This document shows positions 17,031 through 62,868 of a DNA stretch of 64,000 nucleotides, piece after piece. This stretch comes from a virus. Within the stretch, counting starts at the first letter, position 1; each line of letters begins with the position of its first letter. The stretch spans positions 30,772 through 94,771 of IMG/VR virus record IMGVR_UViG_3300043425_001673; one strand, 5' to 3'. The position numbers and the translations under genes were made by a program. The notes below the pieces were generated by a model. That model made no database searches. It was not told the origin of the DNA and saw only the letters and a list, made by a program, of their open reading frames with translations.

Positions 17031-17623
17031 AAACCAAGGTCAAAATACTATGGTCGAAAAAAACCGACCATCAGCCGAAATCAGCCGCAACAGAGTCAAA
17101 CAGAGCCGTGCCAGTCAATCCGAAGGTCGATGATTTTGACGGCACCTTGAAATTGGAAAGTTTGACTTTGTCAGAGATTGACACGCCAAACAAAAGCAAG
17201 CCAAGCAATCACACGGTCGCCTATCTCAGCAGTCTTGGTGCTCCCCCGGAAGGCATGAGCAAGAAGGAATGGGAGGACAAGATATGCTGCGAAAGGCTTG
17301 TGAAGCTTTTTCAGGAACGCATGCTGAACCGCTATGGAGTGAATGTCAGCATCATTACGATTGCTGATCGCAGCTGCTTCAAAAATTTCTATCGTTATAT
17401 GCAGGATCTTCGCCTCACCGAGGAACTGATGTCCTATATCATCGAAGAGTGGTCCGGCATTAAGGCGAGATATCGACTGCCTTACAACACGCCTGTCCCG
17501 AGGACTTTTGCCAACTCTGATTTCATCAAGCAGATTGCGATAGAGTTTCACACCAAAAAGCATGTGATACAACACAATCCAGAATATACGAGGACGTATG
17601 AGTCAGACTGGGAATCCCTTTGA
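17027..17623 (+). CDS. Hypothetical protein upstream of helicase loader
   Basis: 198 residues, ATGA overlap at its start. The first 70 residues are polar and likely disordered; the rest is a helical domain (KKEWEDKICCERLVKLFQER, then FYRYMQDLRLTEELMSYI). The order unknown gene, unknown gene, ATPase, helicase resembles phage replication blocks where such a protein helps load the helicase, but no sequence family is recognised. Confidence 0.5.
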   Translation: MKTKVKILWSKKTDHQPKSAATESNRAVPVNPKVDDFDGTLKLESLTLSEIDTPNKSKPSNHTVAYLSSLGAPPEGMSKKEWEDKICCERLVKLFQERMLNRYGVNVSIITIADRSCFKNFYRYMQDLRLTEELMSYIIEEWSGIKARYRLPYNTPVPRTFANSDFIKQIAIEFHTKKHVIQHNPEYTRTYESDWESL

Positions 17624-17915
17624 ACGCAGCATGATGATGATTGAGATTGACAAAAGGGATGTTGAAATAGCGTCACTGAAAGAGCAGCTTGGTTTGTATG
17701 AATCATCGACGATGAGCATGGCAGAGGCTTTGAAAAGCATTTCCGAGCAGCTTTTCAGAGTCAGTAAATATGACGACAGGGATTGGAGTGAACTCAAGTT
17801 CATACTCGATAAATACGGTGTTGTTCTTGATTCTTCAGTCATGACGTATCTTTCACTTGCCATACCTGAATTTGTAAGGTGGAAACTGGGACGCACCGAT
17901 GAAAAGCCTGAATGA
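17598..17915 (+). CDS. Hypothetical coiled-coil protein
   Basis: 105 residues with GAGGA just before its ATG, overlapping both neighbours. An N-terminal helix has heptad-like spacing (DKRDVEIASLKEQLGLYE). A perfect copy of the genome's palindromic box (17789-17802) lies inside the coding sequence. Function unknown. Confidence 0.5.
   Translation: MSQTGNPFERSMMMIEIDKRDVEIASLKEQLGLYESSTMSMAEALKSISEQLFRVSKYDDRDWSELKFILDKYGVVLDSSVMTYLSLAIPEFVRWKLGRTDEKPE
17789..17802. promoter_or_regulatory. TGAAYTYRARTTCA palindrome, copy 2 (inside a gene)
   Basis: TGAACTCAAGTTCA, the reverse complement of copies 1, 4 and 8. It is the only copy inside a coding sequence, 97 bases before the loader gene start. 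Confidence 0.5.
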
Positions 17916-27888: not shown

Positions 27889-28935
27889 GTGGCAATAAAG
27901 ACGATCAAAATTCGCATCAAAGATTCAACGAGCGCTAGACACCTAAAAAAAATGGCGAATTCGGTGAATTGTGTATGGAATTTTTGTAATGAAACGTCGC
28001 TTTATGCAATTCGCTATAACAATGAATGGCTATCTGGTTTTGATCTTCAAAAGCTAACAAAAGGAGTTAGCAAAGACCTTGGCATCAATTCCACTACAGT
28101 CCAGGAAGTCTGTTCAGAATATGCCTTACGCAGAAAGATTGCAAAAAAGCGAAAGCTGCGTTGGCGTGGTCAAAAATCTCTTGGATGGATTCCATTTAAG
28201 AATACCGGCATATCATTTAAATATGGGAACGTTTACTATGCAGGGCATGAACTAAAGTTGTTTCAGCCTGAACGTTTGCCTTTGAATGGTGAGTATGGAT
28301 CAGGCGAATTCTGTGAGGATTCGCGTGGCCGTTGGTATCTTTGTATCTCAATCCAATATGAAGTCAAAACACCAGAAGTTTATGCTGCAGTTGGTATAGA
28401 CCTTGGCTTTAAATCAACAGCTACACTTTCAAATGGTCAAAAAGTCTCTAATGGTCGCTACTATCGCATGATGGAGCGAAAGTTGGTTAAGGCTCAGCAG
28501 GGCAATAAAAAGCGTCAAGTCAAAGGCATTCACGCCAAGATCAAAAACAAGCGAATGGATGATTTGCATAAGGCGTCAACCAAGATTGTTGAAGAGAACA
28601 AGGTCATAGTTGTAGGTGATCTGCCAGCAAAAAATCTAGCAAAAACGAAAATGGCAAAATCGGTCAATGATGCTGCTACGACTATGTTTAAAACAATGCT
28701 GAAATATAAAGCGAGTGCGCATCAGCGTTGGTATGTGGAAGTCAATGAGGCTAACACAACGAGAACCTGTTCTGTCTGTCTAGCAATACCAGACAGCGCT
28801 CCGAAAGGAATGAAGGGACTCTCGATAAGAGAATGGGTGTGCTGCGATTGTGGAACTATTCATGATAGAGACATCAATGCAGCACTGAACATTCTCCGTA
28901 TCGGGTGCGATACGCTAGCGTCTGAAGTGCGCTAG
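27889..28935 (+). CDS. tnpB: TnpB-family RNA-guided nuclease homologue
   Basis: 348 residues from a GTG start. RuvC-I is GIDLGFKS near residues 170-177. The RuvC-II region reads VIVVGDLPAKNL, where the usual catalytic Glu (VEDL) is Gly. A zinc ribbon follows (TTRTCSVC, then WVCCDCG), and RuvC-III is HDRDINAALNI with its Asp. A nearby Glu in EVNEANTTRT could serve as the alternative catalytic acid, as proposed for a subset of TnpB proteins; otherwise the protein may be nuclease-dead. TnpB cuts DNA at sites chosen by the omega RNA and helps retain the element. Confidence 0.85.
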   Translation: MAIKTIKIRIKDSTSARHLKKMANSVNCVWNFCNETSLYAIRYNNEWLSGFDLQKLTKGVSKDLGINSTTVQEVCSEYALRRKIAKKRKLRWRGQKSLGWIPFKNTGISFKYGNVYYAGHELKLFQPERLPLNGEYGSGEFCEDSRGRWYLCISIQYEVKTPEVYAAVGIDLGFKSTATLSNGQKVSNGRYYRMMERKLVKAQQGNKKRQVKGIHAKIKNKRMDDLHKASTKIVEENKVIVVGDLPAKNLAKTKMAKSVNDAATTMFKTMLKYKASAHQRWYVEVNEANTTRTCSVCLAIPDSAPKGMKGLSIREWVCCDCGTIHDRDINAALNILRIGCDTLASEVR

Positions 28936-32993: not shown

Positions 32994-33329
32994 GTGCAAG
33001 AAGTCAACTTAACGTTGCTATCTGGAAATGTAAGCAAAATTGACTATAGCAAAACCATAAAAGTGCAGGATGAAGTCGCGTCATTCACGTTATGTGTTGA
33101 CCGTGACGGCCAAAATACTACACTGGTCAGAGTCAATGCGTATGGTTCTCTTGTGCCGCGACTCAGGGATTTCGCCGTGCAGCCGGGGGATTTTCTCATC
33201 GTGCAGGGTGAACTGATGAATCGTTATCTGCAGTCGAAACAGGCCAAGACGCTTGAATTGAAGTTACTGGACTTTAAAAAGGTCCCAATCCAAAAAGGTG
33301 ATCGCTATGCAGAATCAACAGGGAGTTGA
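32994..33329 (+). CDS. OB-fold single-stranded DNA-binding protein
   Basis: 111 residues, GTG start with AGGGAG upstream. The sequence matches the bacterial SSB/PriB framework: VNLTLLSGNVSKIDY, ASFTLCVDRDGQNTTLVRVNAYG, then GDFLIVQGELMNRYLQ. It lacks the acidic DIPF tail, unlike the gp32-like protein in the same block, so the phage seems to carry two different ssDNA-binding proteins. Confidence 0.7.
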   Translation: MQEVNLTLLSGNVSKIDYSKTIKVQDEVASFTLCVDRDGQNTTLVRVNAYGSLVPRLRDFAVQPGDFLIVQGELMNRYLQSKQAKTLELKLLDFKKVPIQKGDRYAESTGS

Positions 33330-34323
33330 GTTGGTCGAAGACATGCCTTTCGTTACCGATGAACCAGCCGATGATCCACAAATGCTTGTGACGATCGACG
33401 CTGACTCGGGTGAAATTGAAGAAGAAGAAATGCCCGAGGATACTCCCGAGAATCGAGCGATCCTTGATCGTGTAAAGAATGCGAAGCACAATCTCACCAA
33501 TCAATGGCTGCAGCTTGCTGCTGATCTATATGAAGTTCAGGAAAAAAAGCTTCATCGCCTTGCAGGCTTTGAAAAGCTGGATCAATATTTCAGTCATGTT
33601 ATCGACAACACACCACGCTATGGTTTTGAACTCACCGCACTTCATAAATATTTTCACATCGAACTCAAAGGCATGCTTGTGGACCGTCCAGAGGTTCATC
33701 AGTCTGTTGTTGAGAAGATCAAAAACATTGGCGTTACCAAGACCAAGGAAATCGCCAAGGGCAAAATTAAAGATCCAGATGTCCTTGTCCAACTCATCGA
33801 CGAAATCAGCCAGCCGCAGGAAAACGGTTACATGGCCACGGTTGAGCAGGTCAAGGAGAAGATCAACAACTATAAGCTTGCCCTCAAGGAAACGGTCGGC
33901 AGTGTTGAACTCGATGAGAAGGAAAGAAAGCGCAAGGAGCGCCAGGAGCAGAACAAGAAGGAAATTTTCAAATTTAAAATTCCTTATGGACAGGCTGAAA
34001 AAGTAAAGGAAGCGCTTTCGCGTGTCATTACAAAGCACGGGATGGACGACAATGAAAAGTCCAAGTCGCTGGCCTTCTTTCGTATCTGTGAGGAATGGCA
34101 AATTGAAAATCAGGCGGCGGTTGATGGAACCCGTCCTGGCCTTGAGTCTGAACTGAAACGTCTTGAGGATATCTATTCCTGTAAGCTTGTCGCCTTCCCG
34201 GCTGATGCATCGGGCAATCTCAGAGTGGATGCCGAGGGCATGTCCATCATGTTTGGTGAGGAAACCTTTGCCGAAATCGTTGCAGAGGATGATGAGCCAG
34301 CCGAAGAAAAAACTGTCAGCTAA
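33307..34323 (+). CDS. Hypothetical acidic/coiled protein of the recombination block
   Basis: 338 residues from the ATG with AAGG about eight bases upstream. Residues 1-45 are very acidic; residues about 60-180 form a helical domain (NQWLQLAADLYEVQEKKLHRLAGF, VTKTKEIAKGKIKDPDVL) reminiscent of ParB/DUF3102-type DNA-binding proteins; residues about 200-222 are a Lys/Arg/Glu coiled segment; the end is acidic again. No definite family. It overlaps the SSB gene. Confidence 0.5.
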   Translation: MQNQQGVELVEDMPFVTDEPADDPQMLVTIDADSGEIEEEEMPEDTPENRAILDRVKNAKHNLTNQWLQLAADLYEVQEKKLHRLAGFEKLDQYFSHVIDNTPRYGFELTALHKYFHIELKGMLVDRPEVHQSVVEKIKNIGVTKTKEIAKGKIKDPDVLVQLIDEISQPQENGYMATVEQVKEKINNYKLALKETVGSVELDEKERKRKERQEQNKKEIFKFKIPYGQAEKVKEALSRVITKHGMDDNEKSKSLAFFRICEEWQIENQAAVDGTRPGLESELKRLEDIYSCKLVAFPADASGNLRVDAEGMSIMFGEETFAEIVAEDDEPAEEKTVS

Positions 34324-34423: not shown

Positions 34424-34846
34424 ATGTCTTGCACTACCGAAGTCTATTTTAGAAAAATTTTAAATATAGAGGCAGTAGTCAATCGCATGGGTTGTAACCA
34501 GACCATATACTTGGTCCAGTGTGATACCGGACCAAAACTGTCGTTCACCATTCTCGATTGTGATTCCCAATCAGTTCTTACTGGTGTCAGTGGAGTCAAG
34601 CTTTTCCTGAACAGGATCAGCAGCTGTGGTGTATCCGAGTGCAATATCACCAACGAAGGTCATGAGAGTCTTTCCGGTGTCGATCCCGTCAACGGAAAGT
34701 GGACCTATGTGCTTCAGCCGGGTGATGTGTCGGGAGCGGGGACCTATTTTGCTGATTTGACCGTCTACTATGATGATGGTCTTTGTGAAACCAACTTTCA
34801 GCCGATTCGCATTTTTGTAAGAGAAAGCTGCAAACCATGTTGTTAA
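34424..34846 (+). CDS. Ig-like baseplate/adhesion protein (BppU-N-like)
   Basis: 140 residues with GGGGGA seven bases before the ATG at 34424; an upstream ATG at 34394 was not used. The pattern LSFTILDCDSQSVLTGVSGVKLFL, VDPVNGKWTYVLQPGDVSGAGTYFADLTVYYDDG fits the immunoglobulin-like N-terminal domain of phage baseplate upper proteins. Unusually, it has eight or more Cys, including CKPCC at the end, so it may be disulphide- or metal-stabilised. It follows palindrome copy 4. Confidence 0.55.
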   Translation: MSCTTEVYFRKILNIEAVVNRMGCNQTIYLVQCDTGPKLSFTILDCDSQSVLTGVSGVKLFLNRISSCGVSECNITNEGHESLSGVDPVNGKWTYVLQPGDVSGAGTYFADLTVYYDDGLCETNFQPIRIFVRESCKPCC

Positions 34847-35220
34847 ACGAAAATGGCATTCGCTTCGATCAAATGGGAAAGGTTCTCTGGCATGATGAAA
34901 AGCAGGGACTGACCATCTATGCCGGAAATATTTTTGAGGGAAGAACCGTCAAGGGCAACACCAATCTCGTTGTTGCCATGAGGGTTCTGCAAGGCCAGAT
35001 GTATTACATGCACGGTGACAAAGCCAAAAAGGTTCCAGTGGAAACCTTTGTCCGTGCGGTTTTGAATGGTGATCTTATTCCCCGGAATGTAAAAGAGGTT
35101 GACGCTGAACGCCTGAGCATGTGCGCAATAGGACTTGATAGCATTGCCAATCGGCGCACAGCCGAGGAAACAATCAAATTCTATGGCGATCAGGCTGAGG
35201 AACGTTTTAACGCATCCTGA
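34837..35220 (+). CDS. Hypothetical protein
   Basis: 127 residues overlapping the previous stop. Contains IRFDQMGKVLWHDEKQGLTIY (beta) and a C-terminal helical part with RRTAEETIKFYGDQAEER. No known family. First of a run of small unknown genes. Confidence 0.5.
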   Translation: MLLNENGIRFDQMGKVLWHDEKQGLTIYAGNIFEGRTVKGNTNLVVAMRVLQGQMYYMHGDKAKKVPVETFVRAVLNGDLIPRNVKEVDAERLSMCAIGLDSIANRRTAEETIKFYGDQAEERFNAS

Positions 35221-35252
35221 CAAAATGGTCTTACGGTTACAGGGTGATTTGA

Positions 35253-35444
35253 ATGAAAACTGAAATTGCGATGAAGTTCAAGCTGCCGAAGGAATCTTAT
35301 GAATATGAGATATACAGTCAGGCAGAGGATATGCACCGGGTATTGAACGATATGCAAAAGTTCCTGTTTTCGGGCAATCAGGATTTGAATCTTGAGGACA
35401 TCCAGGGATACTGGCGGGATGTCACTTCCGGTTTGAAGCTATGA
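35253..35444 (+). CDS. Small hypothetical protein
   Basis: 63 residues with AGGGTG six bases before the ATG. Mostly charged helix (EIYSQAEDMHRVLNDMQKFL). Its end overlaps the next ATG. Function unknown. Confidence 0.5.
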   Translation: MKTEIAMKFKLPKESYEYEIYSQAEDMHRVLNDMQKFLFSGNQDLNLEDIQGYWRDVTSGLKL

Positions 35445-35653
35445 ACAAAAAGCGCATTTCAAAGCGAATACCAATCAGTGACAAGCTTGCAACGGATCAG
35501 GTTGGCATTCAAAGGCTTGAGGAACTGAAAAGCCTTTTTGAAAGGCATCGACTGACAAAAACGCAGAGATATCTGGCCACGATCAATGTGCTGAAGTCTT
35601 TGCAGCTTGATAAACGTCTTTGGCGCATCCAGGATGGAAGCCTAGTTGAATAG
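35441..35653 (+). CDS. Small basic hypothetical protein
   Basis: 70 residues, ATGA overlap. Basic N-terminus (NKKRISKRIPISDK) followed by a helix; could bind nucleic acid, but no motif proves it. Confidence 0.5.
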   Translation: MNKKRISKRIPISDKLATDQVGIQRLEELKSLFERHRLTKTQRYLATINVLKSLQLDKRLWRIQDGSLVE

Positions 35654-35661
35654 GGATTGAT

Positions 35662-36192
35662 ATGGAAATCAGACTTAAGGAAGGCGCAAGCCTTCGCTGT
35701 GAGATTACGGGAACAGAGGAAAAGGCGCTGGTGAAACTTCAAACCGATTCGGGCGAAACTCCCTGGATGGGAATTGAAGCTTTAAGAAAGGCTTATCGGA
35801 TTCTGGCTCCAATTGCACAGGAGCCACAGGAACTTGAGCCGATCGTTCAAAAAAAAAGAGAACCTGACATTCATCTTTTGACCGATCCTCCCCAGCTGCA
35901 GGTTCAGCCCGCTCCCCAGCCGCAGGCAAAAAGGCAGCTGTCGCAGTCCGATATACAGAACCTCAGTGAGTTTCAAAACCAGCTGGTTGACCTGATCAAT
36001 GATCCCCCGCCGATGAACGATCGTGGTGGTGCTGATGGACTCTCGGAAGCGCACATAAGGGGGCTGATCCGTGATCACCAGGGACGATTTCAAGACCCGA
36101 GTGCGCTTTATCCAATTCTTCAAAGGCACCTTGGCATGGCTAGGGATCGCTTCGAGAAAATAATTGAGATGAACCAGAAGAATAGAGCCTAA
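35662..36192 (+). CDS. Hypothetical protein with Pro/Gln-rich linker
   Basis: 176 residues. N-terminal beta domain (LRCEITGTEEKALVKLQ), then a Pro/Gln-rich linker (PPQLQVQPAPQPQAK, residues about 73-90) and a C-terminal helical domain. No known family. Confidence 0.5.
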   Translation: MEIRLKEGASLRCEITGTEEKALVKLQTDSGETPWMGIEALRKAYRILAPIAQEPQELEPIVQKKREPDIHLLTDPPQLQVQPAPQPQAKRQLSQSDIQNLSEFQNQLVDLINDPPPMNDRGGADGLSEAHIRGLIRDHQGRFQDPSALYPILQRHLGMARDRFEKIIEMNQKNRA

Positions 36193-36193
36193 G

Positions 36194-36433
36194 ATGGAAA
36201 CTGAAGTCACGATAATCGAAGGTCCAACGTATCAATATGTCCCATCGCTCGATGGTTCATACTATGTGAAGGTTGAACTTGTCAAAGGCGTGACAAGGGT
36301 TGATAACTATTCGGACCGGGAAATGATCTATCACAGGACTTCGTATGCTTCATCCGTTAGCGGCGAATATGAGACGCTGTGGCTGAGGCCGTTTGGATAT
36401 GAAAGTGTCTCAGGAACCGATTACAGATCTTGA
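36194..36433 (+). CDS. Small hypothetical protein
   Basis: 79 residues starting one base after the preceding stop. Beta-rich, Tyr-rich (TYQYVPSLDGSYYVKVELVKG). Function unknown. Confidence 0.45.
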   Translation: METEVTIIEGPTYQYVPSLDGSYYVKVELVKGVTRVDNYSDREMIYHRTSYASSVSGEYETLWLRPFGYESVSGTDYRS

Positions 36434-36554
36434 TGAGTTTGCAAAAGAGGAACACAGAAAGGCCATGGACGGCTGCAGTGGAATGTTCTTTTCACTTTTC
36501 TCCATGGCCATTCTTTGGATTCTCCTGGGGGTATGGCTTTGGATGCGGAATTGA
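36399..36554 (+). CDS. Small membrane protein
   Basis: 51 residues in a frame overlapping the 3' end of the previous gene. Polar N-terminal half (EPITDLDEFAKEEHRKAMDG) and a strongly hydrophobic C-terminal helix (FFSLFSMAILWILLGVWLW). A GAGG lies about ten bases before the ATG. The csrA-like gene starts inside it. Confidence 0.45.
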   Translation: MKVSQEPITDLDEFAKEEHRKAMDGCSGMFFSLFSMAILWILLGVWLWMRN

Positions 36555-36757
36555 AACGGACCAAGTGTGTTGTGGCTCGAAAGTTTGGTGAGTCGGTCTA
36601 TGTTGGTGAAAGCAAAATAACCATCCAAAAAAAGAAGAGAAGTCAAAACACTTTTCTTCTTGTCATCGAGGCTCCCCCGGACATCGTCATTCTCCGGGAG
36701 GAAATCAGTGAAAAATATAGTGGGCAAAATGAGCCAAGCGCAGTTGATCCATGTTAA
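36533..36757 (+). CDS. csrA: CsrA-family RNA-binding translational regulator
   Basis: 74 residues. From residue 12 the sequence CVVARKFGESVYVGESKI and then FLLVIEAPPDIVILREEI aligns without gaps to CsrA: RxxGE, the IG step, the AP-[KP]-[ED]-[VI] turn and the REEI motif whose Arg contacts RNA. CsrA dimers bind GGA in mRNA leaders and block or alter translation. Phage or plasmid CsrA copies are rare, so this gene could seize the host's post-transcriptional network or control phage genes. Extra N-terminal residues (ALDAELKRTK) are not present in typical CsrA. A GGGGG lies directly before the ATG; a TTG at 36515 is an alternative start. Confidence 0.75.
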   Translation: MALDAELKRTKCVVARKFGESVYVGESKITIQKKKRSQNTFLLVIEAPPDIVILREEISEKYSGQNEPSAVDPC

Positions 36758-36790
36758 TGTTATGTAAAAGACATTGACGTGGAGCGCCTC

Positions 36791-37210
36791 ATGATTGACG
36801 CTTACAAGGGTTTGCGAAGCAGCTATGACTTCGGCATGCTTCAGATACAAACGCCAAGTTTCGCTGTCACCTTCAGCAGCCGTGATCGAACAGTCGTTGT
36901 TTTTTTCAAGCTTGGATTTTTGGATATGAGGCCGGTTTTCTATTTCGATGTGAAGGACTATCTCGTTCTCAATCGAAATAACAGGCCAAAGCCTGAGATA
37001 GATGAAAATGCGTTGAAGGAAGCTGTGATAAAAAAGGCTTCGCAGCACTTTGATACGTTTTATATCAGAACTGATGAAAGAGAGGATTTTATTGTCACAA
37101 GTCCTCTTGAAACTATGGGAGTAAAAGAGGAACACAGGCTTGTTTGTCTTGCCCTTGAGCGAAAAATAATCCCGTTTGAGGAATACTTTGAATCAGAGGG
37201 CATCGGTTGA
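36791..37210 (+). CDS. Hypothetical protein
   Basis: 139 residues, ATG at 36791 with GGAG seven bases upstream; a GTG 12 bases earlier is possible. Alpha/beta (FAVTFSSRDRTVVVFFKLGFLDMRPVFYFDV). It overlaps by 18 bases with the convergent minus-strand gene. Function unknown. Confidence 0.5.
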   Translation: MIDAYKGLRSSYDFGMLQIQTPSFAVTFSSRDRTVVVFFKLGFLDMRPVFYFDVKDYLVLNRNNRPKPEIDENALKEAVIKKASQHFDTFYIRTDEREDFIVTSPLETMGVKEEHRLVCLALERKIIPFEEYFESEGIG

Positions 37211-37465
37211 TTTCCACCATTGCTGGGCATTTTTTGTGATGTCAAGAAATTCTTCCAGACTGATCCTCAAAAGTTTTTCGTCAACTATGAGCCAAAAATG
37301 TTGTGTCAGAGTTTTCACAGCGGCTATACTCATGGAACTGTCCCAGAGAAAAATAGGCTGTTTTTCGTTCCAGGTTTTGCCGATGGATTTTCCAAACAGC
37401 AAAAGATCCTCAGTTGACGTGGCATGATCCAGGTCCTGAAGGTGGATCATAAAAAAGCTTCTCAT
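37193..37465 (-). CDS. Small hypothetical protein on the minus strand
   Basis: 90 residues, with GAGG six bases before its ATG on the minus strand. The start is 12 bases from the divergent SLOG-like gene at 37478, so both may share a regulatory region. Residues 1-20 are partly hydrophobic, the rest helical (RISLEEFLDITKNAQQWWKS). It fills an otherwise empty 270-base plus-strand gap, supporting its reality. Function unknown. Confidence 0.5.
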   Translation of the reverse strand: MRSFFMIHLQDLDHATSTEDLLLFGKSIGKTWNEKQPIFLWDSSMSIAAVKTLTQHFWLIVDEKLLRISLEEFLDITKNAQQWWKSTDAL

Positions 37466-37477
37466 GGTGTGTGCCTC

Positions 37478-37831
37478 ATGAAAATTTTGTTTTTGTCTGA
37501 TAAGAGCGTAAACTATTCACAGGAAAACCTCGAAAAGATTTTCAAGACAGCCGTTCTCCCATCGCTTCACTCCATCGAGGAAATTGCAATCGTCACAGCA
37601 TCAGAGCCTGAACTTTTTGCCATTCGCTGGGCAAGAAAGCTTCGCATTCCCTATCTTGGCTTTCTTTATAATGTTCAGGCCGCTTTGGATTATGCTGATC
37701 ATGTGATTTTGATCGGTGAAAGCTGTGAAGATGTTTTGCCTGAAATTGAAAAAAGGGGTAAAACATATCTTCGATGTTTTATGAGCGAAGGGCTTTCCTC
37801 GTTTGAAGGACTTCAACCAGTGAAAGCCTGA
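37478..37831 (+). CDS. SLOG-like nucleotide-binding protein
   Basis: 117 residues from the ATG at 37478. A Rossmann-like sequence: MKILFLSDKS, then IEEIAIVTASEPELFAIRWARKLRIPYLGFLYN and YADHVILIGES. The order (strand, helix with AIRWARK, 'P' then 'ADxVI') resembles the SLOG/DUF2493 fold that binds nucleotides or related ligands. Function is not known; in other phages such proteins are thought to affect signalling nucleotides. The start has no clear SD. Confidence 0.4.
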   Translation: MKILFLSDKSVNYSQENLEKIFKTAVLPSLHSIEEIAIVTASEPELFAIRWARKLRIPYLGFLYNVQAALDYADHVILIGESCEDVLPEIEKRGKTYLRCFMSEGLSSFEGLQPVKA

Positions 37832-39434: not shown

Positions 39435-39791
39435 TTATTTTTTAGGTAGGGTGTCGTCAAAACATTTGTGCTGCGGACCATCGAGTTGAACATCGGAAAG
39501 ATCGTACTTGGTCATGAGCAGCCTGAGCATGATGTTGTTGCCCGGTCCCAGCTGATTCATGAGCCAGCCAATGCAATGCGCCTCATCGCCAACGGGTGAC
39601 TCATGGCAGGCCATAACCCGAATCGTAGGCTCAAGCCTATGGCGGGATACATCATTGGCTATGGTTCCCCTCAGATGCTCATGCTTTTTTTCGTCATAGC
39701 CGTTTGGAATATCGCGGGGATTGGTTGATTTCTTCCAAGGGCATTTTGCGCATTGTCTGGTTCTTTTTAGCTGTTGTTTTTCATGGCTCAT
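39435..39791 (-). CDS. DUF6283-like zinc-binding protein
   Basis: 118 residues. N-terminal CAKCPWKKSTNPRDIPNGY near residues 14-32 is characteristic of the small DUF6283 family, followed by further Cys/His (MACHESP, AHCIGW, HKCFDD), consistent with zinc binding. The role of the family is unknown. The gene diverges from the rmlC-like gene at 39830. Confidence 0.6.
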   Translation of the reverse strand: MSHEKQQLKRTRQCAKCPWKKSTNPRDIPNGYDEKKHEHLRGTIANDVSRHRLEPTIRVMACHESPVGDEAHCIGWLMNQLGPGNNIMLRLLMTKYDLSDVQLDGPQHKCFDDTLPKK

Positions 39792-39829
39792 TCCGGCAAT
39801 CCTTATTTCTGATTCAGCGGAGTCATATC

Positions 39830-40363
39830 ATGAAAAAAACAGCATTGAAAATTGAAGATGCCTTTTTCTTTGATCGTATCAGGCCAGAGGACAGGCGCGG
39901 TTTCTTTACAACGGTTTACCAAAGTGACTGGCATGAACTCGGTCCCGAGGTTCAGTTTAACGTGAGCCAAAGCCGCAAGGGTGTCTTTCGCGGACTTCAT
40001 TATAGCCAGGGCACTCAGCCGGAAGCCAAGTTTGTATCGGTCCTGAAGGGTGAGATACTGGACTTCATCTTTGATGTAAGGCCAGGGAGCAAAACCTATG
40101 GCATCATCCAGGCTGTGAAAATTTCATCCTATCCCCCGCGCACGATTTATATCCCGCCTGGGTGTGCGCATGGCTTTGTGGCTCTCGATGATTCGCTTGT
40201 TGCTTATGCAGCAACGAAGCTTTGGAATCCCGAGGATGAGCGTGGATACAATTGGCAAAGCGATGCGACTGGTTTTTTTATCAAGACCAACATGGAATAT
40301 GAATACATAGATCCATCAAAGATCATCATCAGTGACAAGGATCAAGTTCTGCCATTTTTTTGA
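39830..40363 (+). CDS. rmlC: dTDP-4-dehydrorhamnose 3,5-epimerase
   Basis: 177 residues from the ATG with GGAG seven bases upstream. Cupin fold with DRRGFFTTVY, FNVSQSRKGVFRGLHYS, then DVRPGS, PRTIYIPPGCAHGFVAL; the GLH and CAHGF His and the Tyr/Asp residues match RmlC. It would supply dTDP-rhamnose precursors for glycosylation, in agreement with the three glycosyltransferase genes of the window. No other rhamnose genes are present, so it may complement host enzymes. Confidence 0.85.
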   Translation: MKKTALKIEDAFFFDRIRPEDRRGFFTTVYQSDWHELGPEVQFNVSQSRKGVFRGLHYSQGTQPEAKFVSVLKGEILDFIFDVRPGSKTYGIIQAVKISSYPPRTIYIPPGCAHGFVALDDSLVAYAATKLWNPEDERGYNWQSDATGFFIKTNMEYEYIDPSKIIISDKDQVLPFF

Positions 40364-57782: not shown

Positions 57783-57892
57783 TGCACATGAACGGGATCA
57801 ACCATAAGGATACGCTGTTTATGTTTGACGACATGAGAAAGGAAGCCTTGATGATTTTAGGTGAAACGCATGATTATAACGGACAAATTTAA
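57653..57892 (+). CDS. Small hypothetical protein before terminase
   Basis: 79 residues, GTG start with GGAG eight bases upstream; overlaps both neighbours. Basic N-terminus, then an acidic helix (DEDKDKIRFLMHMNGINHKD). A small terminase or regulator is possible from position only. Confidence 0.45.
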   Translation: MHDATKKTKKKRNGKMLEWFLDNQQIWKDQSLSDEDKDKIRFLMHMNGINHKDTLFMFDDMRKEALMILGETHDYNGQI

Positions 57893-60800
57893 ATCATATT
57901 CCCTATTCACCGATGAGGAACTTCAAAACAGTATCGCTCAGGATATCGACAATATGAGCGAGGCTGAGCGTGCGGTGTTTTTTGAACTGCTTAACAATCC
58001 TCAGTTTGAAGGGGATTTGACCGCACTGGAACTTGATCGGGATATGGTATCGGTTGAGCAGTGGATTGAAGATGATTACTACATGGGAGCCTTGGGCAAG
58101 AGCATCTATAAGCCATGGAAGGATGATCTTCTTGAACTCTTTGAATCATGTGCCTACGACACGGCTGTCATTCAAGGGGGTATTGGCTGTCAAGCCGAAA
58201 AGACGCAGATTATGACAGACAGTGGATTGATTGCGATGGGGGATCTAACCTCATCACACAAATATCTGTCTTACGACAATGGTAAAGCTAGATTTGTGCA
58301 AGGCACACACGCTTTTGTAAAAGGCAAAGACATGCTTTACAAGGTAAGGCATGCCTCTGGTGAATTTGAAGCTACAGCACATCATAAGGTTTTATGTGCT
58401 GATGGTTATTACAGGCGTGTTGATCAGCTTGCTGATGGTATGCAGATTGTTTCGAGCGATAAATTTCAAGATGATGTTTCATGTGATCTTTCTGTGACGA
58501 AAACACTTCGAGGTTTTCTGGATCATTGTTTCTTGGATTCTCATCTATGTGATGAACTACTTCAGTTGGCAAAAGATATCGGTCAAGTTTCTTTTCCATC
58601 ACAAGTCGATGCTCAGGCATTGTCAGCTTTTTACCGTAAAGTGGATGCTCCTTTGGAACACTCACTTTTACATACTCAGTCCTGGTCTTTCCTCCCGTCC
58701 AAAAAGGGTTTTTGGAACCCTTCGGTGGACCGGCTTTTCTTTGATTCAGACCTTGCCTATGCAAAAATTTTTCAACAGAGTTATGGGATCTTCCAACGGA
58801 TGTTGCAATCTCGGAAAGTGGATGTCCTGCCTCGTATAGCGCAAGCACTTTCTCTTTTTGTTCAGAAGACATTCCCCGAGGATTTGCAACGCCTTTACGT
58901 CCCCCTTCTGAACGCCTTGGTAAATCATTTTTCAAAACATAACGAATCACAATATCAGGTGAAGGACGGCCAATCGCTTTCATTATCTCTTCATAGGATT
59001 TTTGTCCGTCTGATAGCTCATGGATTTGTGCTTTCTCGTTCTCGGTCAAAGGCTTTTGAAAATAGGGCAGGTCAAGCTTGCGAACCCAGGCTCTCACCGT
59101 CTCAGGCGATTTCCCAATTACTGTTGCGATGTCGTCAATCTTTGTTTGGAAAGAGGCCATTTTCTTTATCGTGTCTATCTGCTCTTGGGTTAATTTCAAA
59201 CTCACTTGATTCTGTCTCCTTTGGTTTTTCCAAAGTAATGTCGATAGAAAAAACAGTTACAGATTGGTATTGGGATTTGCAAGTGCCAATGACCAATAAT
59301 TATGTGTCAGGTGGTGCGGTGCATCACAATTCAGGTAAGTCAACTTTTTCACACCTTGCCGTTTTGAGGATGCTCTATGAAGCATCTTGTCTCAAAAATC
59401 CGGCTGTCAGCTATGGCCTTGCTCCCAACTCCATCATTGGTTTTTGTTCACTGGCAAAATCCAAGGAAACCGCACGGCGGGTTGTGTTTGAGCAGATTGC
59501 TGCGAAGATTCAGGAGTCGCCTTATTTCAAATATGAGTTTGCGCCTGTCAAGGATGTGAAGGATGAAATCATATTCCCAAAGGGACTTGCAATCATTTGC
59601 GGTTCATCAACGGACACATCCATCATCGGTATGAACATCTTCGGTGGAATCATCGACGAAGTGAACTTCTGGGGAAAGGTGAAAAAGACCAACCTCAATT
59701 TTGGAAAGCACTGGGGAACGGAAAGCAAGTCAGGTAGGCTCTTTGATAGCGTTCGCCGAAGGATGAAGTCGCGCTATATCAAAAAGGGAAAACTCCCTGG
59801 CATCCTGATGCTTATCTCATCGAAGACAACCAAGGACAGTTTTACTGAGCAGTTCATCAGAAAAGAAAAGGCTCTCGGCAATAACTCCACCTTTGTCCGT
59901 GACCGCTCAATTCTTGACATGAAGCGTGACAGCTTTGGCAGTAACACCTTCAAGGTCCTGATCGGAACCGTGGACTATCCCTCGCGTATCCTCATAGAAG
60001 GTGAGGATATTTCAAATCTGACTGATGCCATGGTCATTGAGATTCCCGATGATTTCCGTGTGGACTTTGAAAACAACCTGGAAGAGTCGCTGCGTGATAT
60101 TGCGGGTGTTTCAACCATTGCCATATCCAACTTCATTTCCAAACTTGAAAAAATCAACGAGATGGTTGACGACAGGTCCCATCCTTTCCAGTGTCCGCTT
60201 CTGCCTGATCCAACCATTTGGGATAGCCGCAAGCCATACAAAATCAACTGGCATGCGCTCTGCACTCAAAAGGACAACGGTGAATGGGTTCCGAAACTCA
60301 ATCCCGATGCACCACGTCATGTCCACTTCGATCCGGCTTATACGGGTGACGCCTTTGGTCTTTGCATTGCGCACATCGGGGGAATGCAGGCCGTTCAGAA
60401 GGAAGGTGAGATAATCGAGTATCAGCCTATCTTCATCGTCGATTTCATTCTGGCCATACAGGGAAGCAAGGAAGAGGAAGTCATTAACCGCAATGTGCGG
60501 GAACTCTGTTATGAGTTTTCCAATCATGGATTTCATTTGGCTGAGTTCTCAATGGATACTTATCAGTCAAGGGAAATGGCTCAAAGCCTTGAGATGCAGG
60601 GCTACAAGGCAGGCATCTACTCGGTCGATACGGGGATTTCAAGCAAGGGTGAGAACGTTGTCAATACAGCGGTCGGCAAGGTTCCAAAAGCGAAACAGGC
60701 TTATTGGTATTTGCGCTCTGCCATATATGAAAATCGTGTCAAATGTTATGATTATCCAAGACTCCTGATGGAACTGAGGAAACTGGAAGACACGCCTGAG

Positions 60801-61145
60801 AAGGTGGATCATCCCGAGGGAGAAAGCAAGGACTTGGCTGATTCACTGTGCGGTGTGGTCTGGACTCTTTTCAGATCGAAAAACCATGCGGAACTGCCTT
60901 TGCCTTCAAAGGGTGTGACAGTGAATCCCGGCTCCGAGGTGGAAACTCTTGCGGACTATGCGGAAAGTCTGAAGCAGGATATGTCAGTTGAAGCGGGTTC
61001 AAGTCAGGTGATCGAAATCAGGCAGACAAAGGTTTATGAGAAAAAGAAGCATCAGACCGTGTCACCGAAGTATCAAAAGGTTTCGACCAATGGCACAGTC
61101 AAGGACCTGACCATAAACACCGAGGACTATCTGGTTCGCGGCTAA
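57870..61145 (+). CDS. terL: Terminase large subunit (TerL) interrupted by an intein
   Basis: 1091 residues as translated, 710 after splicing. The intein covers residues 107-487 and splits the Walker A GGIG/SGKS. The ATG at 57870 has AGGTG upstream; a GTG nine bases earlier is an alternative. ATPase motor: Walker A at residues 103-106 plus 488-491, Walker B FGGIIDEVNFW near residue 593. Nuclease part: HFDPAYTGDAFGL, FSMDTYQSREMAQ and ESKDLADSLCG carry the three acidic residues of the RNase H-like fold. It packages DNA into the prohead and cuts it to length. The intein must splice out before the ATPase works. Confidence 0.9.
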   Translation: MIITDKFKSYSLFTDEELQNSIAQDIDNMSEAERAVFFELLNNPQFEGDLTALELDRDMVSVEQWIEDDYYMGALGKSIYKPWKDDLLELFESCAYDTAVIQGGIGCQAEKTQIMTDSGLIAMGDLTSSHKYLSYDNGKARFVQGTHAFVKGKDMLYKVRHASGEFEATAHHKVLCADGYYRRVDQLADGMQIVSSDKFQDDVSCDLSVTKTLRGFLDHCFLDSHLCDELLQLAKDIGQVSFPSQVDAQALSAFYRKVDAPLEHSLLHTQSWSFLPSKKGFWNPSVDRLFFDSDLAYAKIFQQSYGIFQRMLQSRKVDVLPRIAQALSLFVQKTFPEDLQRLYVPLLNALVNHFSKHNESQYQVKDGQSLSLSLHRIFVRLIAHGFVLSRSRSKAFENRAGQACEPRLSPSQAISQLLLRCRQSLFGKRPFSLSCLSALGLISNSLDSVSFGFSKVMSIEKTVTDWYWDLQVPMTNNYVSGGAVHHNSGKSTFSHLAVLRMLYEASCLKNPAVSYGLAPNSIIGFCSLAKSKETARRVVFEQIAAKIQESPYFKYEFAPVKDVKDEIIFPKGLAIICGSSTDTSIIGMNIFGGIIDEVNFWGKVKKTNLNFGKHWGTESKSGRLFDSVRRRMKSRYIKKGKLPGILMLISSKTTKDSFTEQFIRKEKALGNNSTFVRDRSILDMKRDSFGSNTFKVLIGTVDYPSRILIEGEDISNLTDAMVIEIPDDFRVDFENNLEESLRDIAGVSTIAISNFISKLEKINEMVDDRSHPFQCPLLPDPTIWDSRKPYKINWHALCTQKDNGEWVPKLNPDAPRHVHFDPAYTGDAFGLCIAHIGGMQAVQKEGEIIEYQPIFIVDFILAIQGSKEEEVINRNVRELCYEFSNHGFHLAEFSMDTYQSREMAQSLEMQGYKAGIYSVDTGISSKGENVVNTAVGKVPKAKQAYWYLRSAIYENRVKCYDYPRLLMELRKLEDTPEKVDHPEGESKDLADSLCGVVWTLFRSKNHAELPLPSKGVTVNPGSEVETLADYAESLKQDMSVEAGSSQVIEIRQTKVYEKKKHQTVSPKYQKVSTNGTVKDLTINTEDYLVRG
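58188..59330 (+). mobile_element. Intein in the TerL Walker A motif, with antisense HNH gene
   Basis: 381 residues, Cys1 codon at 58188 (GGIG/CQAEK) to Asn at 59328-59330 (AVHHN/SGKS). Block A CQAEKTQIMTDSGLIAMGDL, block B EATAHHKVL (TxxH), blocks F and G WYWDLQVP and AVHHN with Ser+1. The central part (about residues 171-448 of the full protein) shows no LAGLIDADG or HNH in the sense frame; read from the other strand it is a complete HNH nuclease gene (58372-59205). The sense frame stays open throughout. It is therefore an intein whose nuclease lies antisense to the splicing domain. Confidence 0.9.
58372..59205 (-). CDS. HNH homing endonuclease encoded antisense inside the TerL intein
   Basis: 277 residues from a GTG start at 59205 with AAAGGAG (59223-59217) eleven bases upstream. 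Three helix-turn-helix repeats lie near residues 5-45, 53-95 and 112-150 (IDDIATVIGKSPETVRAWVRK, YEEIMKAIGRPSPDIVIRYV, LSEIATSVGRSHNSVEKFLH), followed by an HNH site: EHRLVMEKKLDRYL, then EVVHHIDENPRNNDPENLEV with the expected His and Asn. Homing endonucleases of this kind cut intein-free alleles to spread their carrier. The 3' end overlaps the coding of Hint block B. Transcription here would also make an antisense RNA to terL. Confidence 0.85.
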   Translation of the reverse strand: MSLKLTQEQIDTIKKMASFQTKIDDIATVIGKSPETVRAWVRKLDLPYFQKPLTENEKAQIHELSDGQKSYEEIMKAIGRPSPDIVIRYVLKNDLPRRSEGGRKGVANPRGMSSEQKEKVLALYEAGHPLSEIATSVGRSHNSVEKFLHRQGLNQRKAGPPKGSKNPFWTGGKTRTEYVKVSVPKEHPLYGKKLTMPEHRLVMEKKLDRYLLPTEVVHHIDENPRNNDPENLEVFSSQKDHMKHHLEIYRSKQSAYHQQADQHACNNHQHIKPYDVL

Positions 61146-61147
61146 AG

Positions 61148-61161
61148 TGAACTTGAGTTCA
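61148..61161. promoter_or_regulatory. TGAAYTYRARTTCA palindrome, copy 8
   Basis: TGAACTTGAGTTCA with G/C flanks (GTGAAC, GTTCAC at 61147-61162), two bases after the terL stop and 21 before the portal ATG. Confidence 0.7.
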
Positions 61162-61182
61162 CTCGAATGGAGAAAAATTGAA

Positions 61183-62868
61183 ATGGGTTCCATAGTCGGA
61201 AATTCACTTGATCTAATTCGCACGGTTTTCAATCGAAACAATGTGCTCCCTTTGCCTTCCACCTATTGGGATGCAGCCGCTCGTGGCAGCTTTTTTATGC
61301 AGGGTTATGGACTCGGACCTGTGACCGGGGGAAACAGTCAGCTTGCGGATAGCGTGCGCCTTGAAGAAGACCTGATGACACGCTATGCGGACTACGATGA
61401 AATGGACCAGTTTCCTGAGTTGGGAGCCGCCATTGATCTTTTCGCTGATGATGCCACGGTCCAGGATGTCCTGACTGGAAAGTCGATGTGGTTTGAATCG
61501 GATGATGAAACGGTTGGTCACATCCTGAATGATATGCTCGATGTCAATCTCAAGGTTGAAAATGAACTTTGGGAAATCGCGCGTTCACTCTGCAAGTATG
61601 GCAATGAGTTCATCGAACCAATCGTTCTGGATCAGGTCGGAGTCGTGAAGCTGAATCACGTTCCTCCCCCATGGATGCGCCGTATCGAGGATATCAACGG
61701 AATCCTTTATGGCTACATGCAAGATCCAGCCATGCAGTTTTCCATTGATACGCGCACCTTCCTTGAACGAGTCAAGAACAAGGGAGCGACCGTCATGGAA
61801 CTCCCGGTGAACATGGGACAGGGCTGGCTTCAGGTTTATGAGCCTTGGGAAATTGTTCACATGCGGCTGCGTTCAAGGGCACGCCGGGACCTTTATGGAT
61901 ATAGCGTTGTGGAAGCTGCACGCTATGCCTGGAAGCGTCTTTCGATGATGGAAGACGCGATGCTCATGTACAAGGTCACTCGCTCACCACAGCGATACGC
62001 CTTCTATGTTGATGTTGGTGATGTTCCTCCCAATCAGGCGCGTGGTTTACTCAATCGCATCAAAAACGATTTCAAAAAATCAAAGTTCATTGATCCGACA
62101 ACGGGCAAGCCTTCCTTCCGTTATTCACCGCTTTCAGCAGAGGATGATTTTTTCATCCCTGTTCGCAAGGAAAGGAAAGGCACTGAAATAGAAGTTCTTG
62201 CCGGTCCTGAAGGGCAATCGGTTGAGGATGTCGAATATTTCCTGAACAAGATCTTTGCTGCTCTCAAGATTCCAAAATCCTATCTCGGTGCTGATGAGAC
62301 GGTTGGTCGCGCCAACCTCAGTCAGCTTGATGTTCGCATGTGTCGCTCCGTTATGCGCATACAGCGTGAAATCAAAAACGGCTTCAGGCAGATAGGCCGT
62401 GTGGATCTTGCAGCGAAGAACATAGATCCAGACCGCACGTCATTTGAATGTCACATGGTTATTCCATCGGGTGTTTTTGAATTGGCTCAAATAGAAGTCG
62501 AGAAGGCCAAGCTGGATTTGGCGTCAGCCTATCGTGATGCCAGTTTCAGTCAATATTGGATTTATTCAAAAGTTTTGGGTTTATCCGATGAAGAAATATT
62601 ACAGATTCAAAAGCAACGGGCAAAGGAAGGTGAAGGTGACTTCACAGCCGAGGATGTTGGTCTTATCCACGATCGACTGCCCAGGATGGTCGAGCGTTTA
62701 TCGACTGATTACGATAAGCGGGCTGACAGACATCAGAAGAAAATATTGGATGAAATCGAGTCGGGTAATACCGCTCTTGGCCGACGACTCAGAGAACTCA
62801 AGCATCTCACTCAGGAAATTAAATCAGGCATTGCTAGACAGACAAGAGTCAATGGACGAAGAAAATGA
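61183..62868 (+). CDS. Portal protein (T4 gp20-like)
   Basis: 561 residues from the ATG at 61183, with GGAG about eleven bases upstream; an upstream GTG at 61147 would start inside the palindrome. Typical portal features: DLFADDATVQDVLTGKSMW, YGNEFIEPIV, PPPWMRRIEDINGILYGYM, PWEIVHMRLRSRARRDLYGYSVVEAARY, RSPQRYAFYVDVGDVP, and VEDVEYFLNKIFAALKIPKSYLG. It forms the dodecameric vertex through which TerL packages DNA. A run of basic residues ends the protein. It directly follows terL, as in many tailed phages. Confidence 0.85.
   Translation: MGSIVGNSLDLIRTVFNRNNVLPLPSTYWDAAARGSFFMQGYGLGPVTGGNSQLADSVRLEEDLMTRYADYDEMDQFPELGAAIDLFADDATVQDVLTGKSMWFESDDETVGHILNDMLDVNLKVENELWEIARSLCKYGNEFIEPIVLDQVGVVKLNHVPPPWMRRIEDINGILYGYMQDPAMQFSIDTRTFLERVKNKGATVMELPVNMGQGWLQVYEPWEIVHMRLRSRARRDLYGYSVVEAARYAWKRLSMMEDAMLMYKVTRSPQRYAFYVDVGDVPPNQARGLLNRIKNDFKKSKFIDPTTGKPSFRYSPLSAEDDFFIPVRKERKGTEIEVLAGPEGQSVEDVEYFLNKIFAALKIPKSYLGADETVGRANLSQLDVRMCRSVMRIQREIKNGFRQIGRVDLAAKNIDPDRTSFECHMVIPSGVFELAQIEVEKAKLDLASAYRDASFSQYWIYSKVLGLSDEEILQIQKQRAKEGEGDFTAEDVGLIHDRLPRMVERLSTDYDKRADRHQKKILDEIESGNTALGRRLRELKHLTQEIKSGIARQTRVNGRRK

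Follow-up and report, generated by a model that had tools for sequence, protein, structure and literature searches.

A small gene on the plus strand of an uncultured phage, at 36533-36757 of the window (the whole stretch of DNA analysed, 64,000 nucleotides long), probably encodes a divergent phage protein of the CsrA/RsmA family, one that would dimerise, bind A(N)GGA hairpins and change the translation or stability of a few mRNAs. Membership of the family is established by the Pfam CsrA profile (PF02599), which matches the product with 34.7 bits against a curated cut-off of 27 (E-value 1.8e-8), the alignment spanning positions 3-50 of the 53-position profile; at the level of sequence profiles, this match is far beyond chance. 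A preliminary description had proposed a phage-encoded CsrA homologue, to be checked with an HMM of the CsrA family, and the profile, the fold model and the key residues all bear the proposal out. Further matches are to two PHROG families of CsrA-like regulators and to a family of phage transcriptional regulators, and solved RsmE/CsrA chains in the PDB are matched weakly by sequence (best E 0.0044). The NCBIfam csrA equivalog models TIGR00202 and NF002469 gave 27 and 27.1 bits against cut-offs of 70.1 and 73, and because these are far from reached, the protein is a member of the family but, by the NCBIfam standard, not an orthologue of the host type. In the source record as a whole (IMG/VR, 94,771 bases, possibly a fragment), ORF 36533-36757 is the only CsrA found.

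The gene and its immediate surroundings are the following:

36533..36757, plus strand: csrA-like gene, with a PF02599 match and a model that matches CsrA/RsmE chains
36399..36554, plus strand: 51-aa ORF upstream of csrA, whose product has a single hydrophobic segment of membrane type; the ORF ends in a TGA that overlaps the possible TTG start of csrA (TTGA)
34837..37831, plus strand: run of short, tightly packed ORFs that includes csrA, from the ORF list

The product, MALDAELKRTKCVVARKFGESVYVGESKITIQKKKRSQNTFLLVIEAPPDIVILREEISEKYSGQNEPSAVDPC, has 74 residues if translation begins at ATG 36533 and 68 if it begins at TTG 36551. The start is uncertain: the ribosome-binding site is weak before both candidates, the ATG having no good one, while the TTG and the preceding ORF's TGA stop overlap (TTGA), an arrangement that often accompanies translational coupling. 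The predicted RNA structure around the start is no more stable than that of shuffled sequences. Neither the upstream 51-aa ORF, searched as a nearly identical frame, nor the tested members of the 34837..37831 run have a Pfam match. The position of csrA downstream of recombination genes and among small phage genes is established, its frame is intact, and its codon-position G+C (0.52/0.36/0.44) resembles that of neighbouring phage genes; most likely, the gene sits in a small-ORF operon.

The two segments that would carry RNA binding are given below, with residues numbered as in E. coli CsrA, so that R16, R55 and Val14 of the phage protein correspond to Arg6, Arg44 and Leu4:

36566..36586, plus strand: beta1 segment CVVARKF, equivalent in alignments to CsrA LILTRRV (residues 2-8)
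36671..36706, plus strand: beta5 and start of the helix, APPDIVILREEI, equivalent to CsrA APKEVSVHREEI (residues 36-47)

The phage protein keeps Arg6, Ala36, Pro37, Arg44, Glu45, Glu46 and Ile47, whereas Arg7 is changed to Lys, Val40 and Val42 to Ile, and the near-invariant Leu2 and Gly33 to Cys and Val. On the RNA-binding surface, both Arg44, an essential residue of CsrA (PMC7652899, PMC3791407), and Arg6 are present, and Leu4 is replaced by Val. The AP-REEI match and the retained RNA-binding arginine of the preliminary description stand, but its gap-free alignment does not, the phage protein having, in the b2-b3 region from GES to AP-REEI, one residue more than CsrA. The Arg6 column is invariant across 54 aligned sequences; the 53 relatives among them were collected by a pattern that included A, P, R, E, E and I, so that conservation of these six residues is built in, while Arg6 lay outside the pattern. 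With Leu4, Leu2 and Gly33 changed and the score far under the NCBIfam cut-off, the specificity for RNA may differ from that of CsrA.

With the same 53 relatives, drawn from IMG/VR loci, we built an AlphaFold2 monomer model (mean pLDDT 73, pTM 0.47). In this model the protein takes the b1-b2-b3-b4-b5-a1 fold of CsrA, with strands at 21-24, 29-35 and 41-46 and a helix at 56-63, equivalent to b2-b4 and the helix. Beta1 and beta5 carry no strand assignment, which is expected in a monomer because in CsrA both pair with the partner subunit (PMC7652899). The fold of the monomer model is established by comparison with the PDB, where the 14 best matches are all CsrA, RsmA or RsmE chains; the top hits have a probability of 1.00, TM-scores reach 0.65 by query length and the RMSD is about 1.3-2.3 A for most, with Foldseek E-values that are weak (5.8e-3 at best). 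The protein would most likely form the domain-swapped homodimer usual for CsrA and bind A(N)GGA hairpins through its beta1/beta5 surface. During infection, we infer, it would alter how a small number of mRNAs are translated or how stable they are; because the phage sequence shows no overall enrichment of GGA hairpins, the likely targets are host mRNAs and at most a few phage leaders.

The preliminary description had instead suggested control of phage mRNAs with GGA-rich leaders, taking Shine-Dalgarno sequences with GGAG to be common here. They are not: of 90 leaders, 13 contain GGAG and 49 contain GGA, compared with 4% and 30% at random positions, an excess that is itself inflated because starts were partly picked by their Shine-Dalgarno match. 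Of 87 leaders, 16 are predicted to have GGA in the loop of a hairpin; shuffles give 11.3 (SD 2.4), controls from coding interiors 11 of 83, and this excess of about 2 SD over the shuffles can be explained by Shine-Dalgarno sequences. On the plus (coding) strand, the 71 stable GGA hairpins lie inside the shuffle range of 51-74, that is, without phage-wide enrichment, and the seven SELEX-type consensus sites found at 10 of 12 positions (4.3 in shuffles) are unconvincing. Thus there is no statistical sign of a phage-wide GGA regulon. The search left one candidate, singled out by eye afterwards:

17585..17600, plus strand: candidate CsrA target, TATACG-AGGA-CGTATG, a hairpin whose loop contains GGA

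Its stem holds the ATG of a 105-aa ORF (17598-17915). The window has no Rfam match and thus contains none of the known Csr sponge RNAs. At 33818-33970, A(N)GGA/AGGA sites are clustered, 12 of them within 150 nt (shuffle maximum 9); this cluster was considered as a sponge and rejected because it lies in a coding stretch of ORF 33298-34323 that is rich in Lys/Glu codons (AAG GAG/GAA).

The phage record encodes a DnaB-like helicase, a UvsX/RecA-type recombinase, another DNA helicase and a portal protein of the T4 gp20 family (PF07230, 234 bits), and its nearest portals in INPHARED, from phages of Microcystis, Flavobacterium and Synechococcus, are about 25-33% identical.

61147-62868: portal gene, without either of the intein-like inserts found in related phages

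These two inserts, in the portal genes of L138, L139 and L140, leave the frame open throughout, and each starts with Cys and ends with Asn before Ser. A 1094-aa ORF (57861-61145) immediately before the portal gene matches Intein_splicing below threshold (25.1 of the 35.8 bits required), and at 39704-40363 lies a phage gene for a dTDP-4-dehydrorhamnose 3,5-epimerase-like protein (PF00908, 139.8 bits). Scanning IMG/VR with single proteins (CsrA, UvsX and the product of the neighbouring gene at 34837) gave no close relatives. An identical portal is present in two IMG/VR records (24 and 56 kb), neither of which was found to carry csrA, and there is no CsrA in the ten portal-related records that include these two, most of them short fragments. 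A lead to the host comes from a TnpB/IS605-type ORF at 27889-28935, whose counterpart in a Pseudobacteriovorax MAG is 69% identical; the lead rests on this one transposon-type gene and makes a Bdellovibrionota host possible.

Other explanations of the gene have to be weighed against an RNA-binding regulator. The protein may be a decoy without a regulon of its own, acting as a dominant negative through mixed dimers with host CsrA or by occupying its antagonists (sRNAs, FliW). The preliminary description likewise raised titration or replacement of host CsrA, on which the sequence evidence is neutral. The lack of a clear regulon in the phage leaders is consistent with a decoy, as is the single CsrA that the Pseudobacteriovorax MAG encodes, 32% identical to the phage protein, although the identity of the host hangs on the TnpB-type gene; a pure decoy would need neither Arg6 nor Arg44, however, and both are retained, so we consider this explanation unlikely. 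Retention of critical residues while most of the rest diverged also speaks against an acquired csrA that is degenerating and currently functionless, as do the intact frame and the phage-like codon-position G+C. The strong divergence of the protein, the weak ribosome-binding site at either start and the want of an orthologue in the contigs searched would fit such decay, which we nevertheless regard as distinctly improbable.

A further idea is that CsrA took the place of RegA, the translational repressor present in T4 and many of its relatives, as the phage's own repressor of a few hairpin-shielded starts such as that of ORF 17598. A PF01818 search that detects RegA in the T4-like cyanophage S-ShM2 found none in the 94.8-kb record or in six portal-related records, which may be fragments; but the portal-related records without RegA are also without CsrA, and since the absence of one is not tied to the presence of the other, we hold replacement to be very improbable. 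Finally, a 241-aa minus-strand ORF (36410-37135) is open over the whole csrA frame and the next gene, and were it the real gene, the resemblance to CsrA would be due to chance. This we treat as having a negligible probability, given that the Pfam score is far above chance, that neighbouring genes are read from the plus strand and that no family matches the antisense ORF significantly; it is probably spurious. We therefore retain a divergent CsrA/RsmA-family regulator as the preferred reading.

Phage-borne CsrA is already established, and 36533-36757 is a further, divergent example. A survey of 2020 found csrA in 30 of 2517 phage genomes (Sobrero and Valverde, PMC7366521), knockdown of the CsrA homologue PTXU04_00028 by CRISPRi-ART gives smaller plaques (PMC11879866), and the plasmid-borne CsrA/RsmA homologue RsmQ takes regulatory control of host translation (PMC9928087). 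RsmQ is, like the phage protein, a CsrA of a mobile element, but it is borne by a plasmid and its function has been shown experimentally. In our searches, 91 of 50,697 INPHARED records matched E. coli CsrA, a few of them bacterial contigs filed as phage, and a degenerate motif search of IMG/VR, by which the relatives were gathered, gave at least 119 loci with one narrow motif; all 119 listed candidate frames match E. coli CsrA (E < 1e-3 in that small set).

Compared with CsrA, RsmA and RsmE (RsmE 2jpp/2mfc, E. coli CsrA), the phage protein shares the fold, as modelled, together with AP-x-x-V/I-x-V/I-x-REEI and the beta1 arginine, but is only about 20-34% identical and differs in having as many as 10 additional residues at its N-terminus, besides the b2-b3 insertion and the changes at Leu4 and Gly33. 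Its closest relative among the matches listed is the CsrA-like protein of L051 (IMG/VR 3300024433_000628), with 34% identity over 65 aa; both end alike, with ILREEI-x-x-x-Y-x-G, but the L051 protein is a far more typical CsrA (68 bits) and adjoins large-terminase-like and portal-like ORFs. PTXU04 gp28 and gp9 of Erwinia phage Pavtok are, as here, small and diverged CsrA-like proteins, 35% and 39% identical to ours in a three-sequence alignment. PTXU04 gp28 comes after a putative holin gene and Pavtok gp9 before the major capsid gene, unlike the csrA described here with its place downstream of recombination genes, and the differing contexts in Pavtok, PTXU04 and L051 suggest that phages acquired CsrA repeatedly. 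With the gene described here, the growing list of regulators borne by mobile elements gains a divergent CsrA from a phage whose portal is of T4 type and whose host may belong to the Bdellovibrionota, and the start-site hairpin at 17585-17600 offers a concrete candidate target for a phage CsrA. In Pseudomonas phage vsMR (L011:1303-1632), Pfam finds two CsrA-type stretches within the single chain of a 109-aa ORF, which appears to be a CsrA that has been fused or split.
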